Part shown: one piece after another, positions 8,358 to 58,314 of the stretch
Numbering within the stretch: position 1 is the stretch's first letter
Layout of the letters: every line of letters starts with the position of its first letter
The notes under the pieces: model-generated
The model's database searches: none
Told to the model about the DNA's origin: nothing
What the model saw: only the letters and a program-made list of their open reading frames with translations
Made by a program: the position numbers and the translations under genes
DNA from: Amblyomma americanum
Lineage: Eukaryota; Arthropoda; Arachnida; Ixodida; Ixodidae
Reading direction: 5' to 3'
Assembly: GCF_052857255.1 (NCBI RefSeq)
Contig: NC_135498.1
Coordinates: 160,565,124-160,629,123, forward strand
DNA: 64,000 nucleotides

Positions 8358-8683
8358 CTAGCCACAGATTGTCTTCAGGCAGTTAGTACTGATGCGAGCC
8401 TCTGCCTCATCGGCCTTCCCCTCGGTGCGGTCGCCACTGAAGTCGGACCTTTCCTGGGCTTCCTGGACCTCTCCTGGGCCGCTCAAAGCCGACCTTTCCT
8501 GGGCTTCTTGGACCTCTCCAGGGCCGCTCAAATCAGACCTTTCCTGGGCTTCTTGGACCTCTCCTGGCCCGCTCAAAGGAGATCTTTCCTGGGTTTCCTG
8601 GACCTCTCCGGGACCGCAGTAAGCACATCTTTCCCCGGCTTCTGGCTGAGCCACATTTCCGGAAAGCGGTGCTGCCGAGATGT
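8358..8683 (-). CDS. Gene A, coding exon 2: acidic repeat peptide with C-terminal Cys-x4-Cys-Gly
   Basis: The exon follows a strong acceptor (pyrimidine tract then CCCACAG, AG at 8685-8684). It starts with two nucleotides that complete a phase-1 codon from the exon at 13437-13383. It encodes a short head (SAAPLSGNVAQPEAGERC), four 15-residue repeats GPGEVQE[AT]QERS.[LF]S, then GDRTEGKADEAEARIS and the ending NCLKTICG, with the stop at 8360-8358. With exon 1 the product is 126 aa, secreted and strongly acidic. The last 25 residues match gene B at 17 positions. Arginines preceded by Glu (QER, EAR) are possible processing sites. Function unknown. The opposite strand also has long open frames over the repeats; I reject them because the minus strand has acceptor, phase, paralogue and poly(A) support. 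Confidence 0.8.
8446..8625. repeat. Four tandem 45-bp units inside gene A exon 2
   Basis: The units are 8446-8490, 8491-8535, 8536-8580 and 8581-8625. The middle two are most alike and the last (8581) the most diverged. The length is a multiple of three, so each adds 15 in-frame residues on the minus strand. Gene B lacks the repeat, so it arose by in-frame expansion in gene A or was lost in B. Confidence 0.92.
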
Positions 8684-11600
8684 CTGTGGGCATGAGAAAG
8701 GGACAGGTGTAGAAATTTGCGAAGCGCGAAATGCCTGAAAAACTGTGGCAATTGATTATTGTAGAAGAGTTACCATGATGTTTAGGAAAACCTTACTAGA
8801 CTTATTCGCAGTATACTTATCGCATACTTTTTCTATTTTGTCCAAGAACACCGTACTTCGAACTAGGAGAAAAATTCTGATTCCTTTAGTTTCCTCTTGT
8901 TTAGCCCTTCCCTAGCTCTAAATAGCAACCTTTCTTTTTGCTTAGGGGTGAGTAATCAGTTAAAAATTCTCTTCACAGTTTTCTATGCTGTTCACCACCG
9001 GGCATCCCTCTCATGTTACACCCTGATGTACATTTCGCTGATGTGTACTACTCTTTTGCCCCATTTTTGCAGAAGCCCTCACTAGTGGCATCAGTATTTT
9101 CTACTAATAATTGAAACATGAAAATTCAGCGGACATTTACCCCTTCAGAAAGCTGTACTTCAGTAACAGCTCCGGTGGTTTGGAGCGAGTGAGAATCGTT
9201 TAATGCATAGAATGTTTGGGTGGGCCCTCATTTCAGGAGCCCGTTGGCTTTTGTCGCCGTTCTTTCTTGGTTCACCAACGAAAGGTGGTCGTAAGAATGT
9301 CAGCCGGACAGCGCCGCCCCCCCCCCCCCCCAGTCCTCAGTTGTTGGGTTATTGATTCTTGATATAGCTGTGTTTTTCTGGTATGCTCATACCATATGGT
9401 ATAAGTCAGCCACTTCATCGCAGATCGCCCAGTGCGGATCGTACGAATTTGGAAAGATATTGCTGAATTTTACAGGATTTATGAAAGTTGCAATTTCCTT
9501 AAAATGGCCCCTTTATCCCTGTTTAGATTTTTGTGCGGTTCGGCGCATACTTTACTCGTTAATCTCAAATGCTGGAGTAAATCTCTGTACCTTAATAGTG
9601 GTTCAGAATAATTATGTTCCTGCGAATTTTGGGGGCCCCAAACCAATAGTGTGCGGGCAGCGGCGTGCGCGCCTTCGTTTCCAACATCCTCGGAGTGTCC
9701 TGGAGTCCAGATGACTGTGGATTTAAAGTCTGCATCTTCTTTAGTACTGGGAATTTTTTTGCGTGCTTACCAATCCTTCCTCTTGTATAGTTACGACATG
9801 CAATCTGGGAGTCCATAATTACACACGAGACCTTCCTGGAAACCATCACAGAAGCTATCGCCGCTCCCTGAGCCTGTGCGATTCTCTGGCATCGAATTGA
9901 TGCCCTATTAACTAATTTCCCTTGCGCATCCGTGCATGCTGCCATCGATATCCCGTTGACCGTTACTGCCGCGTCCACGGAAATTGCCTCTTCCATCGCA
10001 CCCCATGTTCTCCTGATGGCGTCCGCCCTAGCCTTCCTGCTCTTCTTATGATATTCGGAGTGTATATTTCTCAGAATGGGCTGGGCCTCGTTCTTGCTTC
10101 TAAGCTGATGTCCCAAGTCCTCTTTGTCCTCCGTAAACCAAATTCATGGGAGCCCTAGTATATCGAGTACACCCTTTCCTGTCCTGCTTCCTGACAGCCG
10201 CATCCTCTGCGATATCGGATGGCCTTCAGTAATTTCATCTACACTATTGTGAATGCCCATCTGCAGTAATCTTTTTGTTCCTGCCTTGACCTTGATACCA
10301 AGTGCTCTTTTATATACTTTGCATAATATGACGTCAAGCTTATCCTTCTCACTTTTCTTCCAATGCAGATAATGTGCTGTGTTAGCTATCAAGTTCGCAA
10401 TAAAAGCCTGTATTAACTTTATGGTTTCTTTTTCTTCCAGTCCATGCCTGTAGTTTAATACCCTACTAATCATTCTTGCCACTTGCTCATTTGTTGCCTG
10501 CAATCGCCTAATCACTTTCGCATTGTTGCCCTTGGCGTCTATTAACAGACCTACGGTTGTCGCGAGTGGCACCTCTTGAATTTGCATTCCCCCACAAATA
10601 CTACAAAGGGGTGAGAGTCTCCTTTCTTGGTAAATGTCAGTAACACTGATTTGTTCGGTGCGCATTGGAGCCCACAGCTATTAGCGTATTCTTGTACGGT
10701 ATCCGCGCACATTTTAGTCTTTCCTGCAAGCTACAAATTGGCCCTCCGGATGTCAAATCGTAATGTCGTCAGCATACAGCGCGTATCTGACACCCTGTAT
10801 GCTGTCGAACCTACTCGGTAGTCTTAACAGGGCAATGTTGAAGAGCAAAGGGCACAGCATTGCACCCTGCAGTGTGCCCCTACTTCCCAGCAGCGTGAAC
10901 TCTGATTTTACTTCTTCGACATTGAGCCTAACTGTTCGGTTCGAGAGAAATTATTTGATAAAATTATACGTCCTTACACCCAAAATGTAGTCCTGTAAAG
11001 TTTTGAGTAAGATATGATGTTTGACACTGTCAAATGCACCTTTGAGGTCTAATGTTAGAAACGCCCTGGTCGGATAGCCTCTAGGTTTGTCGATTATTTC
11101 TTCTTTTTATCTCTAAATTACATCTTCAGTCGAAAGGTTTGGTCTGAACCCAAACATGTGTTTTGGAAGAGGCCACTTTTATCTTAGTGTCTGTAAATTC
11201 TTTTTTTTTATCAACTTGCCGGTGCATGACGTTAGCGATATTTACCTCAAATTATCGATGCCGATCTCTTCACCGGGTTTCGGAATAAACAGAACTTCTG
11301 CGGGCTTCCATTCCTCAGGAAGTTTTCTTTCCGACCCACATTTGTAACAGAATTCTGTGATAGCCTCCAGCGACTTGTCGTCCAAGTTAGCTGGCATGTT
11401 GGTCGTAACCTGATCTCCGCCAGGGCACGTATTCCTCCTCATGTCCACGAGTGCGGCACGCACCCCCCATGTTGTGACCTCCTGCATTTCCTCATTTTGT
11501 GTGCCCGTGTATTCTTTAACCTCCATACCAGAAATCCTCCGATTGTATGTATCTCCTTTTAAGTTCTGCAATCAGCTCCATTTTGCTCCCCTTCAAGCTG

Positions 11601-13382
11601 TGTATGGTCTTCAACATATTTACTTTGTTCTCTCTTTTGCTCTTTCTTGGGGCCATCAGGCATCTCAATGTGGACCAGGTTATCTTGAGGTTAAGTCTGT
11701 CATTTAAAGAGTCGCAGAGGTCGTGCCAGTTAGTCTTGGCCAAATTACGCATGCTTACGCGCGCTGCGTGAGCTGTGCTGTTGCTATTGTTTTGTTTAGT
11801 TTTCTGTTTAGCTCCTGCCTCTTCCACCTCTTTATAAGAGCTCTCCTCGCTTCTCGTAGATGCAATTAATGCGGGTTCATGGCCGGAAAGTCCTCCGATG
11901 TCTAGATCTTTTTGGTGTGATTTTGCAGATCCTCCAAAAGCGTTTTCACCCATGCCTCATAATTGCCAAAGCTGTGCTCCTAATTTTCGCTCCTGCTCCT
12001 CCTTCTAGCTGCTACACACCCTGACTTTATTCCAATTTGGAATTCTAGCTTCCCCCCCTCTTTCCGCGGCTCTTGTTGCACTCAACTGTAGTCTCCAAGA
12101 TAAAGGGATCGCTTTCCAAGTTCTCCTTAAGTTCTCCCAGGCTTCATGTCTTAGATTTTTACCTAGAGTTGAATAATAACTAGTGTCCTTACAGACACTA
12201 TTACCCACTCTAGTAGGCCCGCTTGGGTTCGTTAGGATTCTTAGCGTTTCATTGGTCATTGCATCTGCTAAGTGCTTTCCCTTCGCAATCTCATACGAGC
12301 AGCCCCATAGGTAGCTTGCGGCGTTGAGGTCCCCTACAATTAGCAGTGGACCTCCACTAGCCGCAATTTTGGTCGATCTAATAATTTTCGCGGATCTGCC
12401 CCTTCTGTCATTCGGCCTGCAATAGATATTTACGATCCAAGTACTCTTGTTTTTCCTACAAAGGGGTAACATTTCTATGCAAGTATATTCTACCTCCTTC
12501 ACTTCCAGATCACCGATTTGTGCCGCGTATTCTTTGCGTACTAATATGCATGTGCTTGAGTGAAAATGAAACGTTTTGTATTCAATTAGCTTCGCTCCCG
12601 CAGTGGTCTCCAGCAGTGCTATTACCGTGATTTTGAGATCAACGCTATTTACTTATTGCTGTAATGTAGCCCGTTGTTTCCTAAATCCTCTGCAGTTCTT
12701 TTGCCAAATTATTGATTTTGTTTACTATGACTGTCCATCTTATCCGGTACACGCATCGTTATCATCGTCTAAAACTCTATTGCGAGTCAAACTCTTGATA
12801 GAGGTCCTTTTGACCAGCGTAGTTATTTCCTTATTGTTCCTGTCCATCTTAATCTTAAGAGAAGCTATTTCATTTTGCTGTACGCCTGCCGCCCGTCGGA
12901 GCTGATGTTGGTTAAGCTGTAACTGCTGGATGGGGGACAGCTTTGGGGGACAGGCCCTGGATTATAGATTTTCATGATTCTTTTTAAATTATTCATTCCC
13001 GGTGGTTTGTAATGCAGATGTGAGTCAGAATGTTTAGTACCTTTTTGTATGACTGCGTTCGCGCCGCTACTCTTGCATTCGCGCCGTCGATAAACTCAAG
13101 AAAACGTCTTGGACAAAGAGAGCAGGAGTAGCCGTGGGCAGTAATCAGTTAACAGAGGCGTAAGTGAGGCATGGAGACTGCGTGAGGCGCACCCTCCGTT
13201 TCGCCATTGGCTCTCGCTGCGCGCACCTTGACACTAACGACGACTTTTAAAATTGAAATCTTTTAAAATTGGTAGTAGCGCCACACCACTGAGGCTTCTT
13301 CTACCGATGGACCTAAAACCTCAACGCAGGTGGCGTCGCTTTTACTAAATGAAACGCCTTGCAACAACGGATGTTTACTTAC
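8684..13382 (-). other. Gene A intron, invaded by a LINE
   Basis: The donor GTAAGT (13382 downward) and the acceptor CCCACAG (ending 8684) bound a 4.7-kb phase-1 intron. About 3.4 kb of it is the LINE at 9592-12960, on the same strand as the gene. The remainder holds a poly-C run at about 9316-9331 and unrecognised sequence at 8690-9590 and 12960-13380. Confidence 0.65.
9592..12960 (-). mobile_element. LINE with endonuclease, RT and RNase H (I-like), decayed
   Basis: Read on the minus strand, the ORF2-type domains occur in order. The endonuclease start is at about 12710 (WQKNCRGFRKQRATLQQ), followed by VNIYCRPN and LLIVGDLNAASYLWGCSYEI (12005-12502). An RT entry region follows (LPEEWKPAEVLFIPKPG, about 11290), then the RT core YALYADDI at about 10765 and the thumb (YRHGLEEKETIKLIQAF, about 10400). 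RNase H is at 9592-10116 (SVDAAVTVNGISMAACTDAQ, then IMDSQIACRNYTRGRIGKHA). Several frameshifts and stops show it is inactive. It is near full length for ORF2, but no ORF1 was recognised. It lies in the gene A intron in the gene's own orientation and is probably related to the copy at 4735-5927. Confidence 0.87.
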
Positions 13383-13446
13383 GTTGAAGAATAATCGCGC
13401 AGACAGCGAAAATAAGAACCGTGGCTTTTCCGTTCATATTTTCCGC
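13383..13446 (-). CDS. Gene A, coding exon 1: signal peptide
   Basis: The ATG is at 13437-13435. The 55-nt coding part encodes the hydrophobic leader MNGKATVLIFAVCAIILQ and stops one nucleotide into the next codon at the donor GTAAGT (13382 downward). An acceptor-like TTTTCAG ends at 13447, leaving 9 nt of 5' UTR in this exon; a second acceptor candidate lies further upstream. The same length, phase and leader pattern occur in genes B and C. The leader would direct the peptide into the secretory pathway. The upstream non-coding exon and promoter were not identified. Confidence 0.78.
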
Positions 13447-13449
13447 CTG

Positions 13450-14090
13450 AAAAGTCAACGTTCGAAGAATCTGCGAGGGGAGAAAAGGGAATCTGGTCAT
13501 TCACTGTGCATTCACGATGGTCATCTTACATGGCCTCTGAACGCAATCGGATTTAAGCGCCATTTGCGTAATCTTTAAGACGAAAATACATGCGCATGTT
13601 AAGGACCAAGCTGGGCTAGTTGGCATTGGCTTACCACGGACAGAACGTTAGAACGCTAAAAAGAGAAAGGCAGCCACTAAAAGAGAGGACGTGGGAAGGA
13701 CATGTCCTGTCTATAAGTGGTTGCTTTCGTCTTTTTATCGCGGTAACGTTATTTCCGTCATTTGTTAGTGTTTCCATTCTATGTTGTTAGTGGACCCTTA
13801 GACCTACGCTCACCACCAGGCATAAGAGGGCGTTCGATAGGACGCGAAGCAAAAACCTCGAGCACTGTATTCTCGTCCCGCCATTCTGTTGGAATTTCTC
13901 ACACCAAGTATGGCCGGGAAGACACGTTGCCTTCCGGCTTTTCAAGTAATTACTTCATGTCTGACCTAGTGGTTTCAGCAGCTCCCTCGTATTCGAGACG
14001 TGCGGGGTTCGATCGCCTGCACCACCGAGTAGCCGCCGATGATACAATTGGCCCCTGCTTAACCCTGGCCTGATGCTGGCAAGAAGACAC
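13450..14090. other. Spacer, nothing recognised
   Basis: This stretch holds the presumed upstream intron or promoter side of gene A and short motif-free open frames. A phrase near 13600-13740 looks like repeat-derived sequence but could not be assigned. Confidence 0.4.
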
Positions 14091-14094
14091 GGTC

Positions 14095-14955
14095 TTGCCA
14101 ATCCTGTTCACCGTCTGTTTGTAGGAGGTATTCCGAGGCCTGAATTGGGAACAGTTGCGGATAAGACCTAATGGAGAACACTTCAGTAATCTGCGATGCC
14201 TGCTAATTCAGGCAGATGGTGAACTGCAAATCATTATCAATGAGTTAAACAGGCAGAGCAGAACGGTGGGTCTAAAAGTGATCATGCAGAAAACCAAAGT
14301 ACTGTTCAACTGTCTAGCAAGGAAAAAGCAGTTCACAGTTGGCAGCGAAGTGCTGGAAGTGGTAATGAAATACTTCTAGTAAGGGCAGGTAATGACAGCT
14401 GATGCGATCATGAGAGAGAAATAACTACAAGGATAAGAATGGGGTGGAGCGCATATGGCAGGTTCCCTCAGATCATGAGTGGCAGTTTACCAATATCACT
14501 CAATAGAAAATTGCACAGCAGCTCTCTATCTTGCTTGTACTCACCTACGGGGCAGAAACGTTGAAGCTAACGAAAAGGGTTCCGCTTAAGTTAAGGACAA
14601 CGCAGAGAGCCATGGAAAGAAAAATGGTAGGTGTAACTTTAAGAGACCGGAAGCGGGCAGAGTGGGTGTGGGAACAAACGCGGCTTAATGACAACCTAGT
14701 CGAAATCAAGAGGAAGAAATTGGCTTGGGCAGGGCATGTAAAGCGAAGGCAAGATAACCACTCGTCCTTAAGGGTAACGGATTGGATTCCAAGAGAAGGC
14801 AAGAGTAGCAGGGGGCGGCACAAGGTTAGGCGGGCGGATGAGATTAAGAAGTTTGCAGCATAGGGTGGACGCAGCTGGCAAAGGACTGGGTTAACTACAG
14901 ATACAGGGGAGAGGCCTTTAACCTGCAGTGGGTCAAGTCAGGCTGATGATGATGA
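14095..14955 (+). mobile_element. RTE-like LINE, 3' half of ORF2
   Basis: The plus strand encodes the RT palm to C-terminus of a non-LTR element: ELNRQSRTVGLKVIMQKTKV (about 14240), then LTYGAETLKLTKR, LRTTQRAMERKMVGVTLRDR, KRAEWVWEQTRLNDNL, KKLAWAGHVKRR and a final SRGRHKVRRADEIKKFAA. It ends in a short GAT repeat (about 14944-14956), the typical 3' tail of this group. Frameshifts separate 14155-14379 from 14531-14863. The same family supplies the fragments at 22906-23278 and 62249-62870. The clade name is from memory of motifs, so RTE-like is the safe label. Confidence 0.85.
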
Positions 14956-14959
14956 TGCT

Positions 14960-17630: not shown

Positions 17631-17633
17631 GCC

Positions 17634-17952
17634 CCGCCGCGGTGGCTCAGTGGTTAGGGCGCTCGACTACTGATCCGGAGTTGCCGGGTTCGAACCCGAC
17701 CGCAGCGGCTGCGTTTTTATGGAGGAAAAACGCTAAGGCGCCCGTGTGCAGTGCGTTGTCAGTGCACGTTAAAGATACCCAGGTGGTCGAAATTATTCCG
17801 GAGCCCTCCACTACGGCACCTATTCTTCCTTTCTTCTTTCATTCCCTCCTTTATCCTTTCCCTTACGGCGCGGTTCAGGTGTCCAAAGATATATGAGACA
17901 GATACTGCGCCACTTCATTTCCCTAAAAAACAATTATTATTATTATTATTAG
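17634..17952 (+). repeat. Ruka-like SINE, long subfamily, with ATT tail
   Basis: The head is well preserved (GGTGGCTCAGTGGTTAGGGC as A box region, GGGTTCGAACCCGACC as B box). The body has GTGTGCAGTGCGTTGTCAGT and ACCCAGGTGGTCGAAATTAT. A pyrimidine-rich segment and a 3' end ATGAGACAGATACTGCGCCA follow, then CAATTATTATTATTATT. The 3' segment is shared with the copy at 57722-58033 but not with the shorter copies, so two subfamilies are present. Confidence 0.88.
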
Positions 17953-18788: not shown

Positions 18789-18789
18789 A

Positions 18790-21320: not shown

Positions 21321-21328
21321 TGCAAGCG

Positions 21329-21329
<1 letters not shown>

Positions 21330-21374
<45 letters not shown>

Positions 21375-21389: not shown

Positions 21390-23870
21390 CGATCATTTGC
21401 AAAAAGTACAGTTTACCGGGTGCTTGAGGCCTGCAGAAAAAGCTGTCATGTAGACCGCTCCGCAGGCCCCCTATACACTAGTCATTTTGCAGCGTCACAA
21501 AAGCAGAAGCCATAAAAAAATCTAGAAACGTGAATCCAGGGTAATACACAGTTTGTCAGTGATATTCTACAAAAGAGATGGAGTATACTGCATAGAACAG
21601 ATCAAAGCCACAGATCTGATAAAAGAATGAAATGGGCGAGTAAAAAAGGAAAACACAAGGTACTATACCATCACTTGTGCACAAAGCAAGCAGCCAGACA
21701 GAGAAGACCAAGAAACTAATCGTCAAGTCATGAAGTATGCTTTCAAAGCTTTTATAGAGATATTCTGAAAGGATATTTGAATGTCCATTAATTGATTTAG
21801 AATCCTAGGCAATTGATTATATAGTGTCTGCATTCGATACTTTGTTCTATACGTTTTTACTTTCCAGTCTTCGTTATGGCGCGTGTTATGTGTCTTAACA
21901 TTTTTTTCCTGGTTTGAAAGGTGTTGCAAAAAAAGAAGCCTTCTTTTTTAATTCTTGTTTGAAGTTCCTACACAACCTGTAGTCACAATTCCTTGTCAAT
22001 GGCATAATGTTGTGCTTATTAAACAGTTCTCGAGTGTGGCGACGATTATGCACATTTTCCACAGCTCGGAGAAAATTTTTCTGCAATACATGCAGCTTTT
22101 GTAGATTTTTTTTGGAAGTACATCCCCGTACGAAGTGGCAATAGTTAAGTCGGGAGAGGAAAAACATATTGTATATTAATACAATGACCTTACGTGGTGG
22201 TACATTGCGATGCCGGTATATTAAACCTAGTACATAGGACAGATTTGTTGCTAAGTAATTAATATGGGCGTCCCAAGAAATATTTTCTTGGAACATGACA
22301 CCCAGCGTTTTAAATGACGGTACTATTTCTATAGCTATAGAATGTAAGGATATAGTTTTGTGTGTTTTCATTATTTTGCCTTTGCCTTGGAGCAGGATGC
22401 ACTTAGTTTTAGGCACGTTGATACTTAAAAGTTCATTTTTGTTCAGTCTTCCAGCGCAGCCATTATTAGATTCACGCTGTCAAATAATTCTTTAGAATTG
22501 TTTCCTGTTAAAAAATACAGGTCTCGTCTGCGTAAATTGTGAATTCTGCACAGGGAGCAATATTAGTGATGTCATTGATGTACATATTGAACAAAAAGGG
22601 TCCCACAATCCTACTTTCAGGAGCGCCTCTGGAAATCTGTAGTGAATCCGGTTGGTTCGGTGGGTTTCCACCAATTCCAACTACCTGGCTGCGATGTTGG
22701 AGATAAGATTTTATCAAATTTGCCGCCTTGCCATGAAAGCCATACCGTTCAATTTTATGTAGTAATAAGTGACTCAAATGATCGAAAGCCTTTGTAAGAT
22801 GAAGAAATATTCTGAGTACCAGTTTATGCCATTTTAGTGACATCAGAATGTGTTCTTTTTATGGAACGAGAGCGAACTCCGTGCTAAGGCTTTTTCTGAA
22901 ACCGTCATCATCATCATCACCAGCCTGACTAATCCCACTGCAGGGCAAAGGCCTCTCTCATGTCTCTCCAATTAACCCTCTCCTTTGCCAGCTGCGCCCA
23001 CCCTACTCCTGCAAACTTCCTAATCTCATCCGCCCGCCTCAACTTCTGCCGCCCCCTGCTACGTTAGCCTCCTCTTAGAATCCACTCCGTTACCCTTAAG
23101 GACCAGCGGTTATCTTGCATTCGCAGTAGATGCTTTGCCCAAACCCATTTCTTACTCTTGATTTCGACTAGGATGTCATTAACACGCTTTTGTTCCATCA
23201 CCCACTCTGCCCGCTTCCGGTCTCTTAACGTTACACTTGTCTTTTTTTTTCCATGGCTCGCTGTGTTGTCCTTAACTCCTGAAACCGTATTGGGAGTCAA
23301 TCAATAAGGTATGCTTTTTCTAAAATTTAATCAACCGACTCAACAGGGCTTTCTCAAATGCTTTCGAGGAGATGGGTAGCATCGATATTGGTCTGTAATT
23401 CCCGATGTCGTTTTTATCACGTTATATACCACAGTGACACTCGGAATTCGCACTTTGTAAGGAAAAATAGCTAGCCTTATGCACGAGTTAAAAATACATG
23501 TTTTAATTGGGGTGAGAAGATGAATAGCGTACTTGCAAGGTTTCACCTGAAAGGCATCGATGTCTCTAGCACTACTATTCTTTAATCCAAATATTACTGC
23601 GTTTACTTCGTTTTCGCTAACAGAATAAATATTTTGGAAGAATTCAAACTAAAATTTAAGTGTACGGTCCATTGCTCGTATGTGCTATCAAAGCCTCGAA
23701 TCACTAAAAAAAATCAGGATATGGTTTTAAACTACAATTTATCGCGTACGTTTTCGGCAAAAAAGAATAAATTCTATAGAAGGCTGGCACTCAATTTGTT
23801 TTCTATTTTTATTTCTCTTAGCCCGACGCACAGTAACCGACGAAAGGTAATCTTGCGGTGAATGGCGAAT
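21390..23870 (-). mobile_element. CR1/Jockey-like LINE ORF2, interrupted by a nested insertion
   Basis: On the minus strand the RT signature runs from about 23640 to 21723. Landmarks in order are LLTPIKTCIFNSCIRLAIFP, a QYGFRKSLSTEFAL block that is intact only if the insert at 22906-23278 is removed, then LTKAFDHLSHLLLHKIERYG, GAPESRIVGPFLFNMYINDI and TIYADETCIF. The catalytic YADD is degenerate (YADE). The 3' domain follows (SFKTLGVMFQENISWDAHI, LNYCHFVRGC), with a stop at 21723. An (ATT)n tail follows at 21330-21387. The endonuclease is not recognisable, so the element is 5' truncated. Confidence 0.87.
22906..23278 (-). mobile_element. RTE-like LINE 3' fragment nested in the CR1-like LINE, with 10-bp TSD
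   Basis: The minus strand shows the family C-terminus (VTLRDRKRAEWVMEQKRVND, KKWVWAKHLLRMQDNRWSL) and ends in a GAT-type tail (read as CATCATCATCATCA on the plus strand at 22905-22918). CTGAAACCGT occurs at 22896-22905 and again at 23279-23288, a perfect target-site duplication. Removing the insert and one duplicate restores the host element's QYGFRK motif. It is a 373-bp 5'-truncated copy. Confidence 0.9.
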
Positions 23871-25019: not shown

Positions 25020-25255
25020 GAAAATGGGCTCCGACCACAAGAGCTCTGCGTTCAAGACACACAGCCTCCCGACGAACACAACATGAGGTTGTCGGGAGCT
25101 ATTGCTTCTCCACATTGTTCGGCAATTGTAACCTGGTTCGCACAAGCCCCACCGGTGGCTGTGTCTGAAAGAACCGCCTGCCGCGGCAGTGGCGCATCGC
25201 ATAACCGCTGCTCCACAGCGCTGGGGGTGGTATGAGGACTCGGCGCTATCAATCA
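25020..25255 (-). repeat. SINE-B, copy 2
   Basis: On the minus strand it contains GAGCAGCGGTTATGCGATGC (A-box region), CGCCACTGCCGCGGCAGG and CCACCGGTGGGGCTTGTGCG, matching the copy at 61330-61715. The downstream portion (AATTGCCGAACAATGTGG onward) is unlike the other copies and may belong to another insertion or a variant tail. Confidence 0.65.
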
Positions 25256-31083: not shown

Positions 31084-31236
31084 TTTCGATGGAGGCGAAA
31101 TTCTAGAGGCCCGTGTGCTGTGCGATGTCAGTGCACGTAAAAGAACCCCAGGTGGTGGAAATTTCCGTAGCCCTTCACTACGGCGTCCCTCATAGCCGGA
31201 GTCGCTTTGGGACGTTAAATCCCCCATAAACCATAA
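31084..31236 (+). repeat. Ruka-like SINE, headless copy
   Basis: It begins within the body (TTCGATGGAGGCGAAATTCT) and runs to GGGACGTTAAATCCCCCATA. The tRNA-like head is absent, as expected of a 5'-truncated reverse transcript. This copy would not have its own polymerase III promoter. Confidence 0.85.
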
Positions 31237-31896: not shown

Positions 31897-32134
31897 CGAG
31901 CCACCGCTGTAGCTGAGTGGTTAGGTGCTCGGCTGCTAACCCGAAAGACGCGGGCTCGATCCTTGACGTGGTGGTCGCATTTCGATGAAGACGAAATGCT
32001 AGAGGCACGTATACTGTGCGATGTCAGTGTGCGTTTAAAGAACTCCAAGTGGTTGAAATTTTCCAGAGCCATCCACTAGGGCGTTACTGAAAGCAGCTGA
32101 GTAGCTGTGGGACGTTAAACCCCATGAAACTAGT
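31897..32134 (+). repeat. Ruka-like SINE with perfect 9-bp target-site duplication
   Basis: A full short-subfamily copy: TAGCTGAGTGGTTAGG A box region, GGGCTCGATCC B box, and the body ending in GGGACGTTAAACCCCATG. AACATTCTA occurs at 31888-31896 and 32135-32143, a perfect duplication that defines both ends. Confidence 0.92.
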
Positions 32135-32669: not shown

Positions 32670-32812
32670 CTAGCCACACAGTGACTTGATGCAGTTGCTA
32701 CTGATGCGAGCCTCCGTTTCTTCAGCACTTCCCTCAGAGCGGTCACCCTGTGCAGGATATGCTCGGGCTTCGGGCTCTTCCGCACGATCGGCAGATTGAT
32801 ATGTCGAAGCCT
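32670..32812 (-). CDS. Gene B, coding exon 2: acidic peptide with C-terminal Cys-x4-Cys-Gly
   Basis: The acceptor is a T-rich tract ending TATAG (AG at 32814-32813). The exon starts in phase 1, so the junction codon is G plus AG. It encodes ASTYQSADRAEEPEARAYP, then AQGDRSEGSAEETEARISS and the end NCIKSLCG, with the stop at 32672-32670. With exon 1 the product is a 65-aa secreted precursor, about 46 aa after the leader and junction residue. The final 25 residues match gene A at 17 positions. Two cysteines four residues apart can form only a small ring, and the terminal Gly after Cys could serve as an amide donor. TEAR immediately before the last ten residues fits an Arg-directed cleavage site. 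Function unknown. Confidence 0.82.
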
Positions 32813-33160: not shown

Positions 33161-34568
33161 AAGGACGCCCTGGTTGCTCTTGGCCTTTCATACGCCTTTC
33201 GTACAAATAGAAAGAAGCAGTGCGCCTCTTCCTGCCATTCTTATTACGAGCAAAATAAACGCATCGCCACTCGTGAAAGGTCATGGTCCTTTGGCACCAT
33301 TTGCCTGTGGAGAAAGTCATTAGCTTTTTCAGGTACTGTGTTGCTTACCGACTTCATGCATTTATGAAGTGGACGACTATTGTCATTGTAATTATTAACT
33401 AGGTGTTATTTTTGTAAGAATAAATGATTCTAACGCATTTAGGCCACTTCTCCTTGGATCAGTGTAGCGTATATACAAGATTTACGACGATATCATCTTA
33501 GGTGCACGCAATGCAAATATTGTTAGTTCTTTTACGATTTTAGCGGCTATGAGCGTCCGCATAAAAAATTCACACTGCGATTACGAAACTGAGTAATGCG
33601 TTATTATAACGAACCTCATGTAGGTGATTTTTGCTGTTAAGCGAAGATGTTTTGTTACTTTTTTTAGGCTAAATAACGTATTGTGACATATCATTCAGAA
33701 ATATCACCATCTTCCTCGTCTATTTTCTTCTTGTGCATATTCTCAAGATTTCAAGTATGTCTTCATTGGCAAGAACGCCCTGATGAGTGACGAAGGCCGC
33801 TTTTTGCTCTGAAATGAGCACTTATGCATTCTAGCTGTCGAACAACCTTCGATCCAATCTCTCCAAACTTGTGCCACATTCACAATGCGCGGCCTTCGGT
33901 GTGATTATATACATCTCCGGTATGCCACCGTACGATTAACTAAACCATAAACTGCCTCCACATTCAGCGTAAGCTTGTAAACAAGTTTAGCTCCCTCCGC
34001 GCGACTTCTGCTTTGAGCCGTAGAGAAAACGAAATGGCCACTGGTAGTTGAGGAGCGCTCGGGCTAGCCACGTGCCCTTCCTCAACCGCTCAAACGGTAC
34101 ATAGGCCACAGACATGCGTTGCAAAAGCTTAACACGCTGCCTTAGAATGACAAACCTCCTCCAGATGTGCATCCGGCTGATTGCTATGCAGCGATACTGG
34201 CGCATTTTATTTGGCGTTATGATGCGGCAGGGGAAGGGACTGACGGCGTGCTGTGATCTTTACAGTATAGTAAGGTGTCGCTAACACACACCCAGATACT
34301 CCATTGCGTGGGTGTCTGTCTCAACTAGCAACCGGGAAAGAGATGCGCCTAGGATATGTGCAATACATCTTACAATAAAGCAATAGCGTATAAAATGCAC
34401 TCAGAAAAAAATGATTTTGAGGGGATGCCATACTGGGTCACGCTAAGTATTTGTAAATGATTTCTGTCAGATGCACAGGGGACCAAATCGGAAGAGACAC
34501 TTATGCTCCGCGCTAAGTTTATGACGCGATAGAGCAATTAGTTAATTCCCCTATATGCAGAAGGTCCT

Positions 34569-34850
34569 TCTCTACTTTACATTCATAGATGCCTTTGAGT
34601 CCTCATACCCCTCCTGGCGCAGTGGTGCAGCGGTTACGTGATGCCCCAGTGCCCTGCAATGGTATGTGCACCTAGCGGTAGACGTTGTATGGCCCAGGTG
34701 GCACTTCCCATTCGACCAAACATAAATTTAACTGCTACCTCCTATGGTGGGCAGGTTGTGATGCCGCCGCAAGGTCACGTATTCTGGGTGGCCCATCTGC
34801 CTCCTAGGTTGATCTATGGGGACCACCTGCCAGAGCCATGCCTGTAGTTT
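34569..34850 (+). repeat. SINE-B, copy 3
   Basis: It starts TCTCTACTTTACATTC like the copy at 7857. The A-box region is GTGCAGCGGTTACGTGATGC, and the later part (GCAGGTTGTGATGCCGCCGC, GGTCACGT) matches the 3' part of the copy at 61330-61715. Confidence 0.7.
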
Positions 34851-34967: not shown

Positions 34968-35046
34968 CTAAAACAAGCAGAGCGCTGATAGCGATGAGGA
35001 GGACAGTGGCTTTTCCTTTCATGTTCTCGGTACCAGACGCCCTGCG
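34968..35046 (-). CDS. Gene B, coding exon 1: signal peptide
   Basis: The ATG is at 35022-35020. The 55-nt coding part encodes MKGKATVLLIAISALLVL plus one nucleotide, then the donor GTACTG (34967 downward). The acceptor TTTCCAG lies just before 35046, leaving 24 nt of 5' UTR that resembles the corresponding UTR in gene C (both start CAG|CG and carry GCGTCTGGT or ACGCCTGGT). Leader, exon length and phase match genes A and C. Routes the product to the secretory pathway. Confidence 0.82.
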
Positions 35047-45292: not shown

Positions 45293-45296
45293 CTAG

Positions 45297-47330: not shown

Positions 47331-47399
47331 CAGGAAGAAGTCTCTCGCTCGCGCGCTCGGACCACTTAGGGACCGCCGCAGTTTTTCGCCTCGGCTCTA

Positions 47400-48895: not shown

Positions 48896-48962
48896 CCTTA
48901 CATAAATATTTGTATCAAATTCACGTTTCCGCAGATCACCTTAAAAAGCGCATTTCGTACGA

Positions 48963-49235: not shown

Positions 49236-49239
49236 CATG

Positions 49240-52200
49240 GTGACTGCGCCGGCTGCAAAATGCGCCCGTCTCAAGTTTCAGCCAGAGTGGGAACTGCGGA
49301 AACTCAATTCTTCGTTGCTAAACGAGGAAGACTAAGCAGCGAGTGAGGAGACCTTTGCAATCTTGCTTCACCATAAGAATCCAAATATTTGCATCATGGG
49401 AGGTGTTTATGTAAGTGCTCATGGCATAGCTATTGAAATTGGCTCCATGAGGTCTTACTTTCAGCATGGGAAGGAGAAACGGGCGTTTCGGAGCCTTTAT
49501 AATTTCCATGAAGTTGAAAGCGAGACTGCAGAACTGTTGACAGACGAAATTGCAATTGCGAAGTATCACCTTCAAAAGTTCGGTTCAAAACGCTTTCAGG
49601 CGGCCCGTGTACGATTCCGCAGCAATCGTCCTTTGCACTCTGAGGAGCCAAACAGACAGGCCTTGCTAGATGACCACCGCTACGCAAGTGCAAGCGGGTC
49701 TCTGAGCTCTGCTGTGGTGGGCCTTGGTCACAGGCGCCACCACAGCAGATGAGATAGTCACCGAGTCTGCGAAACACCACACGTCTCTTTTTGCTGCCTC
49801 TTCAAGCAATACTCATGTTGTCCATATATCGCACCGGATGTCTTTGATCACGCCGCTTTCTTAAATTGAGTGCGTGGTAAAAAGCGGTCATTTAACCTTC
49901 GGTCAGATGGTAGATGCAATTGATCAATTGCCACTCTCGAAAACTGCAGGTACTGTTGGTCTCGCAGAAGAATTTTCCAAGACATTAATATCTTTTCTAT
50001 CTCTTGTCCTACTCAAGATTTTGGAGACCAGTATTGGTGTTGGATTTTTGCCACAGTCATATAGTAAAAGTCATATTGTCTTAATATAGAAAACTCAGGA
50101 TAAGGAAAAACTACGATTTGTAGATGGCTACAGACCTACCTCACTTTCTAACGTTGATTTAATATTTCCTAAAAAATTGGCTACAGCTTGAAGTGCCCAC
50201 TTTGATTGGACCTTCTCAAACATGTGGCTTGAGGCGACGGTCAATATAGTCTGCTCTACAAGTAGCACGCACGGCGCTGCAGTATTGCAGTAACAGTCAT
50301 GAACAATTAGCCTGCTGCAAACTAACCTTGCAAAGGCGTGCGATTGAGTGTCCAATTCATTACTTTTTTTTCTTTTTTAAATCACATCAATCTCGCTTCA
50401 ATTCTTTCTACCGGGTGTGCCTTTGTTGCAAAAACTGTTCCACGCGCTTGGTTATAAATGGCTATCTCTCACAACTAGTGTGCATTCAATCCTCTGTGAA
50501 ACAAGGTTGCCCATTGTCCCCGCTCCTTCTCCCATTATAGTTGGACCGACTTTGCATAAGTGTCATAAACAATAGAGCCCTCAATGCTTTCCGTATTATA
50601 GGTCACGAACTGAAGGTATTAGCTTATGCAGATGACCTCATGTTTTTGTGCCATGAGGAGCCAAGCATCGGTGAAGTTTTTTGATGACGTGGCCTTAGTG
50701 TTGCAACAATTTTTCATTTATAATGCTCAAATGAAGCCATGACATTTTGAACTTCATTGCAATCCTGTAACGTCATAAAAATTATATGCCTAAGTAGTCG
50801 GCTTTAAATTTTCTTCCTCTTTTTCCTTGGCTGTCTTCCCTTATGCCTTTGTACTCGTGAAAGAACCAATTTGAGCTGTGCGTTTCTTATCTACATTTTT
50901 TTTTCATTTTTAGTTGTTTGTTGCTAATATTATGTCGTGATTTTAATGCTTATTACTGTTTACTGTAATCTTTCTGCAGTTTGGTTACTAATACAGTTTG
51001 TCCCTAAAACCTGCAATATACAACTTGCTCCTCTTCAACCAAGATTCGTCACAAATGTTCACTCCGCTCCCCTCTGCAATGCTTCGGCAAATGAGGGTAT
51101 TGTGAATAAATTCGCTCAACGTAGGGCATTGCCATCGTTTCTAGTGTTGAGGTCTCTGGTTTGGATTGCGGGGATCGGCACTTGCTGAATACGCTAGTAT
51201 GCAATGGACCACCCAAGTAACATGGCGTTCCTTGGAGTACCCATAAGCACAGTGCACATTACTGGAAAGACCGTGTGCCAACTTTTCAGTGCTGTGCCCA
51301 GACTTTTGTACCCCATGGTCTCTTGGGTCTTGCCAGGCCACGGCAGGTAATTTGTTTCTCGCCACTAAAATTTATTACGCACTGCAAGTTATTCGTTGCA
51401 CAAGGCTTTAGATTCAGCGTTTTCATAGGGTTTTCGCCATTTTCGTGTGGGATTCGTCTTTTGAATCTATGAGGCGTAATAACAATTTCCGGCCTGTATG
51501 TGCTGGCGGCCTTGTTTTAGTCCACCTGTATTTCCGGCAGATAGCTTCGCGTTTCATGTTTTTCTGTGACACTACACACCCAATAGTGCGTGTATTCTTG
51601 AAAACCAGTTTATTCCATATTTTACCGAAACTCATATTGTTTTCTAATGTTTGTAATTGGCCATGTTTGTTGGGCTTCATGCATAAGGTATACTTGGCTG
51701 TAAGTTTGCTGCTTCTTCGATACTCCCCTGAGTTCTTGTTTTCAGTTGCGAGGAAACGGTTTTACAAGGATTTAATTTGTATGCTCTTCTCTCCGCCTGT
51801 GTACCGCTCTGTGTATTTTGGTTTACCGGGACATGACGTACTCAATAGAGTACGTAAAAGGCCCTTCTCGCCATGTACAAAAACATTTTTATAAACTACA
51901 CACCGAGACATTGCTCGTGAAGACATGGTTAGAGAAGAAGCGTTTTTTATGTCTACGGTAAATTGTCGCCTTTATGTTGGTCTCTGAACGACTGAACATT
52001 GTTACATCAATATCAAAGATGTATTGTTCTGGGACATCAATCAACGCACGTTGAAAACAAACACTTAATCTGACACCGCAAGCAATACGATATCTCACTG
52101 TACGGCCACTTGTGGATGAACTCTTAGAAATGTTCTTTCTAATTGGATAACAGAGCGTCTGGTCATCTAAAAAAAGCGTATGCCCATATCGAGTTCGAAG

Positions 52201-52265
52201 AGGAGTGGCACTCATTCTTAGAGCTGTGCTCTTCATTGCCTTTATTCCAGTGCTTTGTTGCAAAG
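49240..52265 (+). mobile_element. L1-like LINE, ORF2 linker, RT and C-terminal region
   Basis: This continues the element of 43500-45292. The linker has AHGIAIEIGSMRSYFQHGK (about 49420). The RT follows: PLSKTAGTVGLAEEFSKTL (about 49930), VDGYRPTSLSNVDLIF (about 50120), VKQGCPLSPLLLPL (about 50500) and VLAYADDLMFLCHEEPS (about 50630), with the YADD box intact. The C-terminal part runs from GGLVLVHLYFRQIASRFMFF (about 51510) through DLICMLFSPPVYRSVYFGLP and KTWLEKKRFL to about 52265. Several stops and frameshifts are present. About 100-150 residues of endonuclease and linker are missing between 45292 and 49240, so the interruption also removed sequence. Confidence 0.87.
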
Positions 52266-52269
52266 GTAT

Positions 52270-54215
52270 GTCGTATTGTGAAATATTAGTTATGTGTTCT
52301 GAATTGCCTGCTTCCTCGTGATTGGTTGCTTAGGTGTGTTGTATTATGCATGGTGTGTATTTATTACTCTTTACGGAATGTTTGTACATAGCTCATGCCC
52401 ATAAAAGACTGCATGACTGTAAGAAATACCATGTGAAAACAAAAATGTTGATGCGGTGCTCTGATGAACTGGCGAGCGAAGCTAACCCGTCCGCACCAGC
52501 CTGCGTTGGAAACCCACTTCGGGAAAAGATTTATTTTAGAAATTTTATTTTTCTTCCTTTCCAGATAGTGTTGTCACTGCCGCTGACGTTGTGAGGTAAC
52601 GTAGGCTTTCGGACCGTCTGGCGTGGCGAACGACAACGCCGGATTTTCCGCGCCACGAGCCATATATGCTTTCGCGTTCATGAATTCGACGGGATGCAAG
52701 AGGAACATATCACTCTCAGCCAGCCTCATCTTATGTTGTCTTTTTTCAGTAAGGGCTCTGCCTCGTGCGACGCAGTTGACGCGTGGTAATCAGCGCCCGA
52801 ACAAGACATGATTTCCGGCGCTTTAACCGGCGCTTCGGGGAGATAGCAGGCACAGCGTTTTGAAAAAGACGCGCGTTATTCGGGCAGTGGACAAGAATGG
52901 GTTAAAGCTGCGTCGGTAAATATCGCTCAGTTGTCAAGGGGTATTCTGGCAATGCAAATATCGCAACGCTGTCATTCGTCGCAGCTCGCTCGATTTGCGG
53001 TCGTTGTGGAGTATATCGTTGCTGCCAAAACAGAACGCATGATTTAGGCCGGAAAAAAAGGCAAAAGTGTTGAAATTGGCTCTTTTAGCTAAGTGCGCCC
53101 TTTCCCGTGCTCAATCAGCCCCGACGGGCCGCACGCATTTAGCTGACATTTTTGCTGTCACTGATGGAGTGCCTCCTATGATATAGTGCACATGGACCTG
53201 TGGAAGTTTGCCCACTTATACACTTAAAAGCCGCATCCAAGCAGGAACCGCATAAATATATATTTCTCCTAGCCTTACAGAGCTCACTCTAGCACGCGCT
53301 TTTAGGTTACCGGTATGTGTTACAATCAGTTCTAATCTACTTTAAGGTATTGCTCTCTGTGCCTTGCACTACGAGATTAAATGTCTGATTGCTTAAGGTT
53401 CTTTGCTGACGTCGCGGCGTTTGAACGTAAATATCACCTGTCGGCTGGCTCTGTCAGTATTATCAGTGTAGCGCGCTGGTATTCAACCGTACTGAGCGCA
53501 TTTTTACTGCAGTCAGCACTGGGTCTTTCGCTATGCACAGAAGAAGTACTTAGTGGAATCCCTCTGAAGGAAGCAAAATATATAGCAATTTTCCTAATGC
53601 CTTTGCGAAGTGAAACTTTATTAATTAGTACGAAATCATTGGTGTTCAAACTGGGCTACTTTTGTGACTTGTGCAGGAAGCCAAAGTCTAATCACAACTA
53701 AGGCAGCTGAATGATATAAGCTAAATTAACGGCTCGCACTTTGCAGCTAAAGGACACTATTTTAATGCTTAAATTCGGTGCAACCCCAGAAAAATCCCGG
53801 TCGAGTACGACATGGTATCCCATAATTGAGCGCTCTTCGTTGTGACTTTAATCCCTATCGAATTTCTTCGCGCACACTAGGGCATTAAGTGCGTGTTCAT
53901 CGTTCTACGCTCTAACCACATATACTTGCACGTGGTCAACAGTTGCAATAGTTTCCCGCATAACCATAGTTTTCCCTTCGCTACTTAGGTGCGTGTTCAA
54001 TGCTTTTCCATCTCAGGGGTTCTGCACTGGAATGTTTTGTGCAAATATTTTGTTTTAAATTCGCATCAGCATCTTCGACTCTTTTTTTACTAAAGATGAA
54101 CCAATGTTTCAAAGACCAAGCTGAAAAATTAATCATGCGGCACTATAAGCCCATGTAAATGCTATGCTCATAATCATACTAAAAACTTATTCAAAATTTC
54201 TGGTCTCCTATTTTT
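52270..54215. other. Spacer upstream of gene C
   Basis: A 106-codon plus-strand open frame (53381-53701) has no motif and no signal peptide. The rest is unrecognised. The gene C promoter and any non-coding first exon should lie here but could not be pinned down. Confidence 0.4.
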
Positions 54216-54219
54216 TCAG

Positions 54220-54301
54220 CGACGCCTGGTGTAAGAAGGGGGCAACATGAAAGGAGGGACAACGATTTTCATCCTCGCTGTGTGCGCCCTTCTTGTTTTA
54301 G
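54220..54301 (+). CDS. Gene C, coding exon 1: signal peptide
   Basis: The exon follows a good acceptor (TCTCCTATTTTTTCAG, AG at 54218-54219), has 27 nt of 5' UTR, and starts translation at the ATG 54247-54249. The 55-nt coding part encodes MKGGTTIFILAVCALLVL plus one nucleotide, then the donor GTGAGG at 54302. The upstream acceptor implies at least one earlier non-coding exon. Leader, length and phase match genes A and B. Confidence 0.82.
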
Positions 54302-55934
54302 GTGAGGGAATAGCTGCGAAGTGTCCACAAAGTTTTTCTCCTTCTGTGTGCTTCATTAAACAAAGCTTTGCTGTATTGTTTGAGTAGCACAGGAAGCTAT
54401 TACGCATATTTACTTCTTACGTAGGATTGAATAACTTGTCACTCTTTTGTCGTGCTATTGGCTACTCCGAAAACACAGCCCGCTTGATAAGAAAAATATT
54501 ACCGGCCTACTATTTTTTTTCGTAAAATGTCCTTTTCGCTTCATTAAAGAATGGTGCCAGCACCACGTAGATTTTTGGGCGGAATTCACATCAGCCGATT
54601 GTGGTCAATGTCTTATAACTGGAAACTCAAATATACGCCTTTAAGGTCACTTTGTCAACCTGTGAGCAACTACATGGAAGCACAGTCGGGTTCAGTTGGA
54701 CTAAATTGAGTTGTCTTTATTTCCATAAACCTACAATCCATGAGAAATATATGTGGAAAGGTGAGCATAGCAACTTGACGAGCCTTGAACCCTGTCTGGG
54801 GGTAGCAGCGGCAGCCACAGCACGGATACAGGACCGACAACGCATGCAAAACCTGAAAAAACATACAGCTGGCTTAAACTTCGGCCAGCAAACAGAAATT
54901 CAATAGAAAAATATAAAGCACAAGACCTAGGATATACACAGTTTGCACATGGGGCGCAAAAACAGTAATCGAACCATTTACCAAATGAGCGCCGTGAGTA
55001 AGAATGGTGCATTATTATAGAAAGCGGCTAATATTTCAAGGAAAAGTAATTGAATAATAGCAGCCTGCCTCGAAAGCACTCGAAGTAACAAAAATGATAA
55101 CAAATAATGCGACAACTTACGTTATGATGAATTATGCCAAAAATACCGATACAAGCGCGAAACAGGGCAACAAGTCATGTCGTATTTATTGCGCATGAGA
55201 TTGTTAAACAGGAGAGCTAAGCGATGAAGTGACAGTTGAAAAGGGCACTTGGTGCGAGGCGATAGCACGCGCCAGTGTTCAAGCGATCGTGCATTGAATA
55301 CCGCTCTGTTTTTTATTAACTGCGCTTAAGATCTGTTCTATGACAGGTCTTATTTCTGCTGATTGCGGTGCGCTAACCACAGATTGATGTCGAACAGATG
55401 GTGCAGGGTGAGTAAACTTAGGTGTTGAAAAAGGGGGGTTGCGGTATGAGCATCTGATGGAGTTAATATTACCGAAAGTACAAGTTACCTTTTAGTGAAC
55501 AGGGATAATCGATTTACCTCGGTAGCAGAGGTCGTACTCCACACGAAACAAAATTAGTGTAAATGGCTCAGGAAGAGGGCATTCTATAAAAGAAGTTTCA
55601 CATTACATAGCAGCGATCTTATACTAGACTGCATTCCAGCTACTTAGTAAGCTTTCCTGAAAAAAAATCTGTGTGGTCAGACCATGAGCTATGGCTATCG
55701 AAAGACATACGAAATGTTTTCGCGGAACGGACCAGCTCAATTTTTGAAGAAGCTGTTGTACCGTCGCGCTCTAAGTTCACACATTTGTTTTTTGCATGAA
55801 ATACCAACTTCCGTTTGGCCGTTCTTAATTTTTAAGCCATTAACCAGTTGTGTTTTTTATCAAGAAAAAAATTTGTGGTTGAAACTAGGCGTGCATCATT
55901 GTTTGACGAAAAAAATAACGCTAGTAACATCAGC

Positions 55935-57720
55935 CTACATTATACATTTTGGTTAGCTATCCACAAGAACGAGATCGTTTACATGCATATTGATGAGAAG
56001 AGGGCCTATTAAGCTCCCTTGTGGAGCACCAACTTTTACTTGCTTAAGCTCGGAGGGGATGCCATTAACTACAAAAGGTTGATTTCGCTGCTTTAAATAT
56101 GATTTAAAATGTATGTAGTACCACGAATGCCATACTAAGCTAATGTTTCCAATAACATTCCATGATTGAAAGAGTCAAGCGCTTTAGTGAAATCGAATAG
56201 AATCCCGAGCATGAGCAGCCTTTCTGCAACATTTCTCTGCATCAGTTCTTTTTGTTCTGGTAAGGCAAGCTAGGTTCTCCTTTCTTTTCGGAAAGCGTAC
56301 TCACAGTCAGTTAAGAGGTTGTTTTGGTTTTCTAAAATATTCGCAAAATTTTATTTTCTCATGTTCTTTGGGAATACCGGAAGTACAGAAATAGGTCGGT
56401 GATTAGATATCTGTTTTATTACCGTTTTTAAAGAGTCCATCCATTTTAGTGGTCTGCATTCCAGCTGTTAATACTCTAGACACTCGACAAAATTCTAAAC
56501 CTTTGCTAAAATAAGTGCGATAATCTGCAGGACATATTTTACAGGTGAAATCTGTATGCCATCAATTTCACCTGACGTAGGATTACGTAACCCAGAAAGC
56601 AAGTGGATTAATTCAGTTTCAGTGGTAGGGTGTAAGAAAATACTCTCGGAGTATGTGACCTCAACACAGCGGTCGCAATTTCTACCTGCACATATGCCAG
56701 CAGCGTTTATATAATAATTATTAAAACGGTCGGGAAGCCCTTCATCCGGAATACTGTGACCTTTAATAATATACACGCTTGTCTGCGAGGGCGTTGCTCG
56801 ATTTTATATAATATTTAGTTGTTCCACGTTGGCGATTATCATTATGACAAGACAAAGTATTCATACTGTTACCAGATTTTAGCTTTCCGAACCTTATCTG
56901 CATTGCAAGAACTTTTAAATATATGCAGATCGGTAATATTGCACGACTAAAGAAATTAAAAATCACGCTCTAAACTTTATCTTCCGGAAGAGGTCATCGG
57001 TGATTCATGGCTTGCGAATTCGAGAACACTTGCGTTTCGCTCGCCAAGGTAAATTTTGGTGTTAACACTTGCTGAAAAACCCCCAAAATTCTTCGTACGC
57101 TGATACGGCATTATAGTGTGTTATAGACATCGCTCAAGTGAAATAACATTGTCTCATCACGAAACGTTTCCTGATGATTGAATCTAATCAGTTGGCTTGG
57201 TGATTGTCGCTGTCCATTGTTTGTTTTTACATTGTTTAAGACAGAAAAATACTCATGTGGTCGCTCAGATTGCACAAAAGAATGCAGGCCTCCATGATAG
57301 CCGTTGAAACATTACTGATTGACAAATCTAGGCAAGTAGACACAGCGCAAGTTACTTGCGTTGAGATAGAGATAACCCTAGCGCAGCCATGCGGCTGAAG
57401 CAAGCCATGAAATTCCTTAGTGAAGCGAGTGTCAGCTAAGACATCAACGTTAATGTCGCCGCTCCAGACGACGCCGTACTTCTACATAGAAATATAAGTA
57501 AAGAAGATTTCAGGAAAACGAAAGAGACCGGGATGTTACGTCCTGTCGGATGATAAAATACTGAATAGACATTGCTACCACTGCAAACGATAGAACCTCA
57601 TAATCATCCGTTACCCATGGAAATTCTTGAATGTAGTCAATATTAATACTGCCGCGTACCAGTACGCTCGTTTCCGTGAATTCGTCGCAGTTGTGGCTAA
57701 AGCAATGTGTTACGCACTAT
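55935..57720 (-). mobile_element. CR1/Jockey-like LINE, endonuclease end to RT, decayed
   Basis: On the minus strand: an eroded endonuclease end (about 57180-57680), the RT entry (PTTETELIHLLSGLRNPTSG and EIDGIQISPVKYV at 56495-56640), then CEYAFRKERR near 56300, LGILFDFTKALDSFNHGMLL near 56200, an altered GAPQGS motif near 56020 and a short end at 55935. Multiple stops are present, including within the RT. The 3' portion (YADD, thumb) is absent, so it is truncated at both ends. Confidence 0.8.
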
Positions 57721-57721
57721 A

Positions 57722-58033
57722 AGAAAATGAAAGTTGTTTTTGAGGAAAGAAACTGACGCCGTAACTGTCTCACATATCTCGGTGGACACTCGAACCGCGT
57801 CGTAAGGGAAGGAATAAAGGAGGGAGTGAAAGAAGAAAGGAAGAAAGAGGTCCCGTAGTGGAGGCCTGCGGAATAATTTAGACCACCTGGGGATCTTTAA
57901 CGTTCACTGACATCGCACAGCACACGAGCACCTTAGCGTTTCGCCTTCATCGAAACTCGGCAGCCGCTGTCGGTTCGAACCCGGGTGCTCCGGATCAGCA
58001 GCCGAGCGCCCTAACCAGTGAGCCACCGCGATA
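57722..58033 (-). repeat. Ruka-like SINE, long subfamily
   Basis: On the minus strand: a GGTGGCTCACTGGTTAGGGC head, a GGGTTCGAACCGACAGC B box region, the body with GTGCTGTGCGATGTCAGTGA, and the long 3' extension with GAGACAGTTACGGCGTCAGT and an A/T-rich end, as in the copy at 17634-17952. Confidence 0.88.
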
Positions 58034-58183
58034 AGTTTGCACTATGGCCCAAAAGTCGATTTTAAATTTAACAGTGCATTTCCACATATTTAATGCCAAA
58101 GCGGGAAAGAACTCAACAGAGAAGAATTTGCAAAGTGCTGAACGATTCATTGTTTTCTATCTTTTCCCAACCTCTTAACACAG

Positions 58184-58314
58184 AGGTTTCCGCCATTGCT
58201 GGACCTTCCGTGCATGTGGCTGGGGGCGAGGCCAGAGCAATTTCCGTGGAAGGCGACCGCTCAGATCCAATGGCTTCGGAAATAGAAGCCCGCATTTTAG
58301 AAGACGCATTTTAG
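58184..58314 (+). CDS. Gene C, coding exon 2: acidic peptide lacking the C-terminal cysteines
   Basis: The exon follows the acceptor ending at 58183 and starts in phase 1 (junction codon G plus AG, as in gene B). It encodes VSAIAGPSVHVAGGEARAIS, then VEGDRSDPMASEIEARI, and stops after LEDAF at 58312-58314. The product is 61 aa including the leader. The GDRS and EARI blocks align with genes A and B, but the Cys-x4-Cys-Gly end is replaced by a short acidic end. Gene C may be a diverged paralogue, or a copy whose end was lost by mutation. No frame in the next 60 nt restores the cysteines. Confidence 0.75.

Follow-up and report, generated by a model that had tools for sequence, protein, structure and literature searches.

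Spider-venom peptides are released from linear and complex precursors by a rule, set out in PMC8290080, in which an Arg at position -1 has one or more Glu among positions -2 to -4, or in which the mirror image of this arrangement stands at the start of a linker. Linkers are described there as opening with the mirrored motif and closing with the motif itself, and among 133 propeptide ends the same account gives EEAR at 38%, xxER at 31%, xEER at 27%, and the Asp-for-Glu form xxDR at 4% (PMC8290080). The enzyme that cuts at the quadruplet motif is reported as a venom-gland serine protease of Cupiennius salei (PMC6468893). Among ticks, the variegin-type inhibitors of Amblyomma are described as multicopy precursors that give Ser-initial peptides, and that description states that the site at which Amblyomma multicopy salivary precursors are cut has yet to be identified (PMC8617063). 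The hirudin/madanin/variegin superfamily is, by one account, confined to metastriate ticks (PMC3060141), and a conserved Pro-Arg-Leu motif is given for the madanin/hyalomin peptides (PMC4526366).

We analyzed a window of 64,000 nucleotides from the tick Amblyomma americanum (contig NC_135498.1, positions 160,565,124 to 160,629,123), in which the original prediction had placed three dispersed genes, A, B, and C, as small secreted precursors. The observation was confirmed as real and well made. New relative to it are a repeat array in gene A, the segmentation of the precursors by Arg and acidic residues, a Cys-x4-Cys-Gly end conserved between A and B, and gene C without that end. Judged from the sequence, A, B, and C very probably form a real paralogous secreted family and likely represent diverged paralogous copies of a gene for a small secretory precursor.

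Gene models

The coordinates of all three genes (Table 1) proved correct to the base when checked in the window sequence. Each signal exon measures 55 nt from ATG to donor, ends in phase 1, and is followed by an open exon 2 containing GDR[ST]..EARI; the split junction codon is G+AG in both B and C and C+AC in A. AATAAA occurs downstream of every stop codon, at 86 nt (A), 127 nt (B), and 170 nt (C), with a second copy 186 nt past the stop in gene B. All of this agrees with the original prediction. The gene B donor, TAG/GTACTG, matched 5 of 9 consensus positions, a value equaled or beaten by 39% of the GT dinucleotides that the window contains. Upstream acceptors had also been proposed at 54219 and 35047: an AG is present at both by sight, and their use by 5' UTR exons is weakly supported. 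Alignments of the upstream flanks gave p values of 0.04 (uncorrected) for B-C, 0.10 for A-B, and 0.33 for A-C.

Table 1 Coordinates of gene models, the gene A tandem array, and SINE copies in the window.
Feature	Position	Strand	Description
Gene A exon 1	13383..13437	-	55 nt coding, signal peptide, phase-1 end; donor AAC/GTAAGT matches 8/9 consensus positions
Gene A exon 2 including stop	8358..8683	-	with exon 1, 126-residue precursor
15-residue (45-nt) tandem array, gene A	8446..8642	-	TRF 4.4 copies; direct repeat; four units with GPGEVQE[TA]QER
Gene B exon 1	34968..35022	-	55 nt, phase-1 end; weak donor
Gene B exon 2 including stop	32670..32812	-	with exon 1, 65-residue precursor
Gene C exon 1	54247..54301	+	55 nt, phase-1 end; donor matches 7/9 consensus positions
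Gene C exon 2 including stop	58184..58314	+	with exon 1, 61-residue precursor without the Cys-x4-Cys-Gly end
tRNA-Ser-type SINE in gene C intron, just before exon 2	57768..58030	-	85% over 264 positions to 17635-17898
SINE matches to 17635-17898	58030-57768, 37000-36824, 1893-1714, 31089-31184, 18787-18623, 1367-1522, 31904-32082		

Chance controls and kinship

A scan of both strands of the window for open 55-nt frames from ATG to GT gave 65, of which the three most hydrophobic are the first exons of A, B, and C. They were also the only 3 of the 65 to reach a 12-residue hydropathy of at least 2.3, a threshold of our choosing, with values from 3.14 to 3.46. The pattern GDR[ST], then 4 to 14 residues, then EARI occurred three times in the window, only in the second exons of these genes, and matched once in 200 mononucleotide shuffles. 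A chance origin of the three-gene pattern was rejected on the hydropathy scan, the motif shuffles, and the profile and cross-match controls.

With exon 2 of B as query, the scores were 45.4 bits for A and 29.3 bits for C, and the best of 20 shuffles reached 20.8. The corresponding query from A matched C at 24.6 bits, under the best shuffle value of 27.3, so that the case for gene C depends on B, exon 1, and splice geometry. After the signal, similarity scores compared with the best of 1000 shuffles were 103 vs 49 for A-B, 64 vs 42 for B-C, and 44 vs 48 for A-C (p 0.003). Profiles built from A, B, and C found no fourth copy of the family in the window. For exon 1 the next match stood at E 0.92, and the reversed window gave E 0.037 at best; for exon 2 the corresponding values were 0.89 and 0.053. 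The high scores of A, B, and C against these profiles arise by construction, and the single-query results are the fairer measure.

A 98-nt DNA match between A and B (72%) runs from the last part of exon 2 into the 3' UTR. Of 12 flank comparisons, three had an uncorrected p value under 0.05 (B-C upstream, 0.040; B-C at the intron 3' end, 0.004; A-C in the 3' UTR, 0.014) and nine did not, so that introns and UTRs lend little support. Intron ends aligned nowhere except weakly at the B-C 3' end, so the duplications look old. Over exon 1 and the exon-2 block, which was picked for its conservation, Nei-Gojobori dN and dS were 0.23 and 0.75 for A-B, 0.34 and 1.28 for A-C, and 0.29 and 0.90 for B-C, with dN below dS by one-sided Fisher test on rounded counts (p 0.005, 0.002, and 0.011, respectively) and an A-B ratio of about 0.3. 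Exon 1 alone gave the same direction without significance (p 0.13 for A-B, 0.07 for A-C, 0.18 for B-C). Gene models, chance controls, cross-matches, and post-signal similarity together support the proposal of three paralogous small secreted precursors.

Precursor anatomy

The predicted mature chains are acidic, with pI values of 4.26 (A), 4.48 (B), and 4.33 (C), and dibasic sites (KR, RR, RK, KK) were absent from all three precursors. Cutting on paper after every [ED]R or EAR from residue 23, the assumed point of signal cleavage, divided A into APLSGNVAQPEAGER, CAYCGPGEVQETQER, SPLSGPGEVQEAQER, SDLSGPGEVQEAQER, SALSGPGEVQEAQER, SDFSGDR, TEGKADEAEAR, and ISTNCLKTICG. The same procedure gave YQSADR, AEEPEAR, AYPAQGDR, SEGSAEETEAR, and ISSNCIKSLCG for B, and IAGPSVHVAGGEAR, AISVEGDR, SDPMASEIEAR, and ILEDAF for C. 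The piece between GDR and the end of EAR has 11 residues in every gene. After this block, A and B share ISxNCxKxxCG, so that a C-terminal Cys-x4-Cys-Gly end is conserved between them; gene C keeps the block through EARI and then reads LEDAF where A and B run on with SxNCxKxxCG. The A-C match in the 3' UTR begins 1 nt past the A stop and 9 nt past the C stop, a position that suggests that the end of C derives by change from this very region. The candidate Cys-x-Lys-[ST]-x-Cys ring of A and B may resemble a trypsin-inhibitory loop of the Bowman-Birk type.

Any two of copies 2 to 4 of the gene A repeat are separated by 2-3 silent changes and 1-2 replacements. Each of the four repeats has one Arg with an acidic residue before it, the unit boundaries being our choice of cut. 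The first unit (8583-8627, minus strand) reads CAYC where later units have SxLS, and a Cys pair occurs in that repeat only.

Arg and acidic residues

Fourteen Arg follow the assumed signal in A, B, and C, and all 14 have Asp or Glu within the three residues before. Glu occupies that span at 11 of them, the exceptions being A104, B28, and B43, each of which has Glu no more than three residues after; counting either side, Glu accompanies every Arg. Read against the spider rule, the forward quadruplet-type motif thus covers 11 of the 14 Arg and the mirrored motif the other three. Upstream enrichment exceeded shuffles and permutation at p 0.0004 for D/E and 0.004 for Glu, values that come from acid-rich precursors and from three genes that are not independent samples. 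With three of the A repeats removed, D/E preceded 11 of 11 Arg (p 0.0004) and Glu 8 of 11 (p 0.015). Acid after Arg taken alone was at chance, with Glu at 4 of 11 (p 0.62) and D/E at p 0.45. The site forms comprised five xEAR whose first residue is not E, five xxER, four xxDR, and no EEAR.

Comparison with spider-venom and tick precursors

As far as spider-venom linear and complex precursors are described in PMC8290080, the tick genes share with them a signal peptide, acidic segments, and Arg after Glu (xEAR, xxER) or Asp (xxDR). The block in A and B also follows the linker form given there, beginning with the mirrored motif and ending with the forward one (RTEG..AEAR, RSEG..TEAR), whereas C has Asp in place of Glu in the first half (RSDP..IEAR). 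The forms of the sites are alike but their mix differs, EEAR making up none of 14 here vs 38% in the spider set and xxDR 4 of 14 vs 4% (PMC8290080). Spider products are described mainly as cationic linear peptides or cysteine-rich toxins, while the candidate here is an 11-residue piece with two Cys (PMC8290080). The repeats of gene A differ from the spider precursors in being acidic, and the likeness we draw is one of sites only, not of kinship. In view of that likeness, we think that A, B, and C may be cut in a similar way. Among 5.39 million open papers, only three pair "tick" with "quadruplet motif", and judged by title all three deal with spider venom.

Set beside the multicopy variegin-type precursors as described in PMC8617063, gene A alone has repeat units able to start with Ser after Arg; the family differs from them in having no thrombin-binding motifs and no significant similarity, and B and C are not multicopy. 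With madanin and hyalomin, as presented in PMC4526366, the family shares small tick peptides with an acidic region and differs in that Pro-Arg-Leu is absent from all three precursors. Membership in the hirudin/madanin/variegin superfamily was rejected on comparisons that covered three natural peptides from the literature (variegin, avathrin, and repeat 1 of DAA34688.1): when each precursor was set against each peptide, none of nine pairs reached p <0.05, the lowest being 0.092 (B-variegin). The motifs PK and DFE.IP, read off the published peptides, and Pro-Arg-Leu were found in none of the three precursors.

Further searches were similarly negative within their scope. None of the three exon-2 proteins matched Pfam above a curated cut-off, the sole listed match being Tower for B (E 6.5; 7.4 bits vs 25). 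A protein collection that may hold no tick proteins returned no candidate for B, four for A, and 362 for a three-row alignment query, none at E <=10. PDB sequences gave no convincing match, and two at E 1.3 and 6.8 were judged chance. Prokaryote contigs yielded 164 pattern matches and viral contigs 115, with none confirmed in either, a weak test because the collections are prokaryotic and viral. Six peptide strings of the family did not occur in the paper text searched, and the titles and abstract openings among the literature matches listed held no description of the family, which is no proof of absence.

Proposed maturation

Once the signal has been removed, A, B, and C would be substrates for an Arg-specific protease similar in kind to that of spider venom, recognizing Arg with Glu among the three preceding residues or with the mirrored motif after it. 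Cutting would remove linkers of acidic character, chiefly the conserved block R[ST]..EAR, and from A and B it would free the C-terminal 11-residue ISxNCxKxxCG, in which, reading from the letters only, the Cys-x4-Cys ring may close and the Gly be converted to an amide, leaving a 10-residue peptide. A would also release a run of 15-residue acidic pieces, and C would be a precursor built alike but closing with another short piece; since C has no candidate ring peptide, the ring cannot be the product of the whole family. The family and its processing at Arg linkers, taken together, we put at an even balance between right and wrong. For the destination of the products, saliva (for the host) rather than the tick's own body is our guess.

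The broader proposal, that ticks share the acidic-linker, single-Arg code of spiders and that this family yields an amidated Cys-x4-Cys ring decapeptide, ISxNCxKxxC, together with short acidic peptides, is tentative and in our estimate doubtful. If the shared code were true, it would either be older than spider venom or have arisen twice, and it would give tick multicopy precursors a rule for where they are cut. Short peptides would then be predictable from seemingly plain acidic secreted proteins wherever the Arg rule held in ticks. If the rule fails, what is left is one more small lineage-specific secreted family.

Alternative explanations

The secreted family may be real but uncut, the whole acidic chain doing the work, for example as an anionic binder of basic host or tick surfaces, and the spacing of Arg reflecting an E/A/R-rich composition. 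The low predicted pI of all three mature chains suits this reading, as does the fact that composition partly explains the neighborhood of Arg and acid, with Glu after Arg at chance. D/E within three residues before every Arg nevertheless exceeds shuffles, and one such Arg falls in each of the four repeats of A, within limits that are a chosen cut; we regard an uncut chain as possible but rather improbable. Decaying or non-functional copies, whose exons persist and are no longer used, seem highly improbable given that open frames and poly(A) hexamers are kept in all three genes and that silent change per site is greater than replacement change, even though the donor of B is weak, the A/B end is absent from C, a SINE sits in the C intron, and other repeats and mobile-element remains lie in the introns of A and B.

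Two further readings concern the class of the product. Dibasic cutting sites are a usual feature of neuropeptide precursors. An endogenous peptide hormone or neuropeptide precursor, in which A and B would signal inside the tick through a ring amide at their C-termini, would be in keeping with the Gly that follows Cys there, but the absence of dibasic sites argues against it. So does the arrangement of the copies, which lie within 50 kb, have diverged, and in one case do not encode the peptide, a pattern closer to that of a secretory family undergoing fast change; we consider the hormone or neuropeptide reading unlikely. A diverged branch of the metastriate hirudin/madanin/variegin thrombin-inhibitor superfamily would share with gene A the plan of several repeats and units that can be cut to start with Ser after Arg. 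The lack of any comparison below p 0.05 and of the PK, DFE.IP, or P[RK]L motif in all three precursors makes such a branch very unlikely. Arg-linker processing of a paralogous family is the reading that we prefer over these alternatives.

SINEs and other repeats

The window contains eight members of a tRNA-Ser-headed SINE family, counting a 264-nt reference element at 17635-17898 whose head was identified as tRNA-Ser by ARAGORN and as tRNA by Rfam. The other seven copies share 70-85% identity with it over 99-264 aligned positions. For the tick SINE Ruka, described as tRNA-Ser-like, the coordinates of six copies correspond to lengths of 176-195 bp (PMC3160391), and the window family, likened to it by description, fits Ruka, which makes a tick origin of the DNA likely on sequence grounds.

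Ten of the 35 listed long frames were scanned, and seven matched mobile-element domains (transposase, endonuclease, reverse transcriptase, RNase H), with one RNase H match below its own curated cut-off; the remaining three matched nothing at E 0.001. Two neighboring frames at 3262-4155 on the minus strand matched DDE_Tnp_1_7 (E 8e-6 and 6e-22) and represent a broken element, which we take to be of the piggyBac type. A dispersed repeat of 69-182 nt with 71-78% identity occurs at 7855-8042, 34568-34710, 61531-61712, and 25185-25253, one copy lying in the gene B intron. An inverted repeat pair at 14617-14957 and 22909-23250 has arms of 242 and 97 nt that are 85-86% complementary, with about 8 kb between them. 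Near the end of the window, positions 63567-63848 hold a direct repeat of 74 nt with 97% identity, the two starts lying 208 nt apart.
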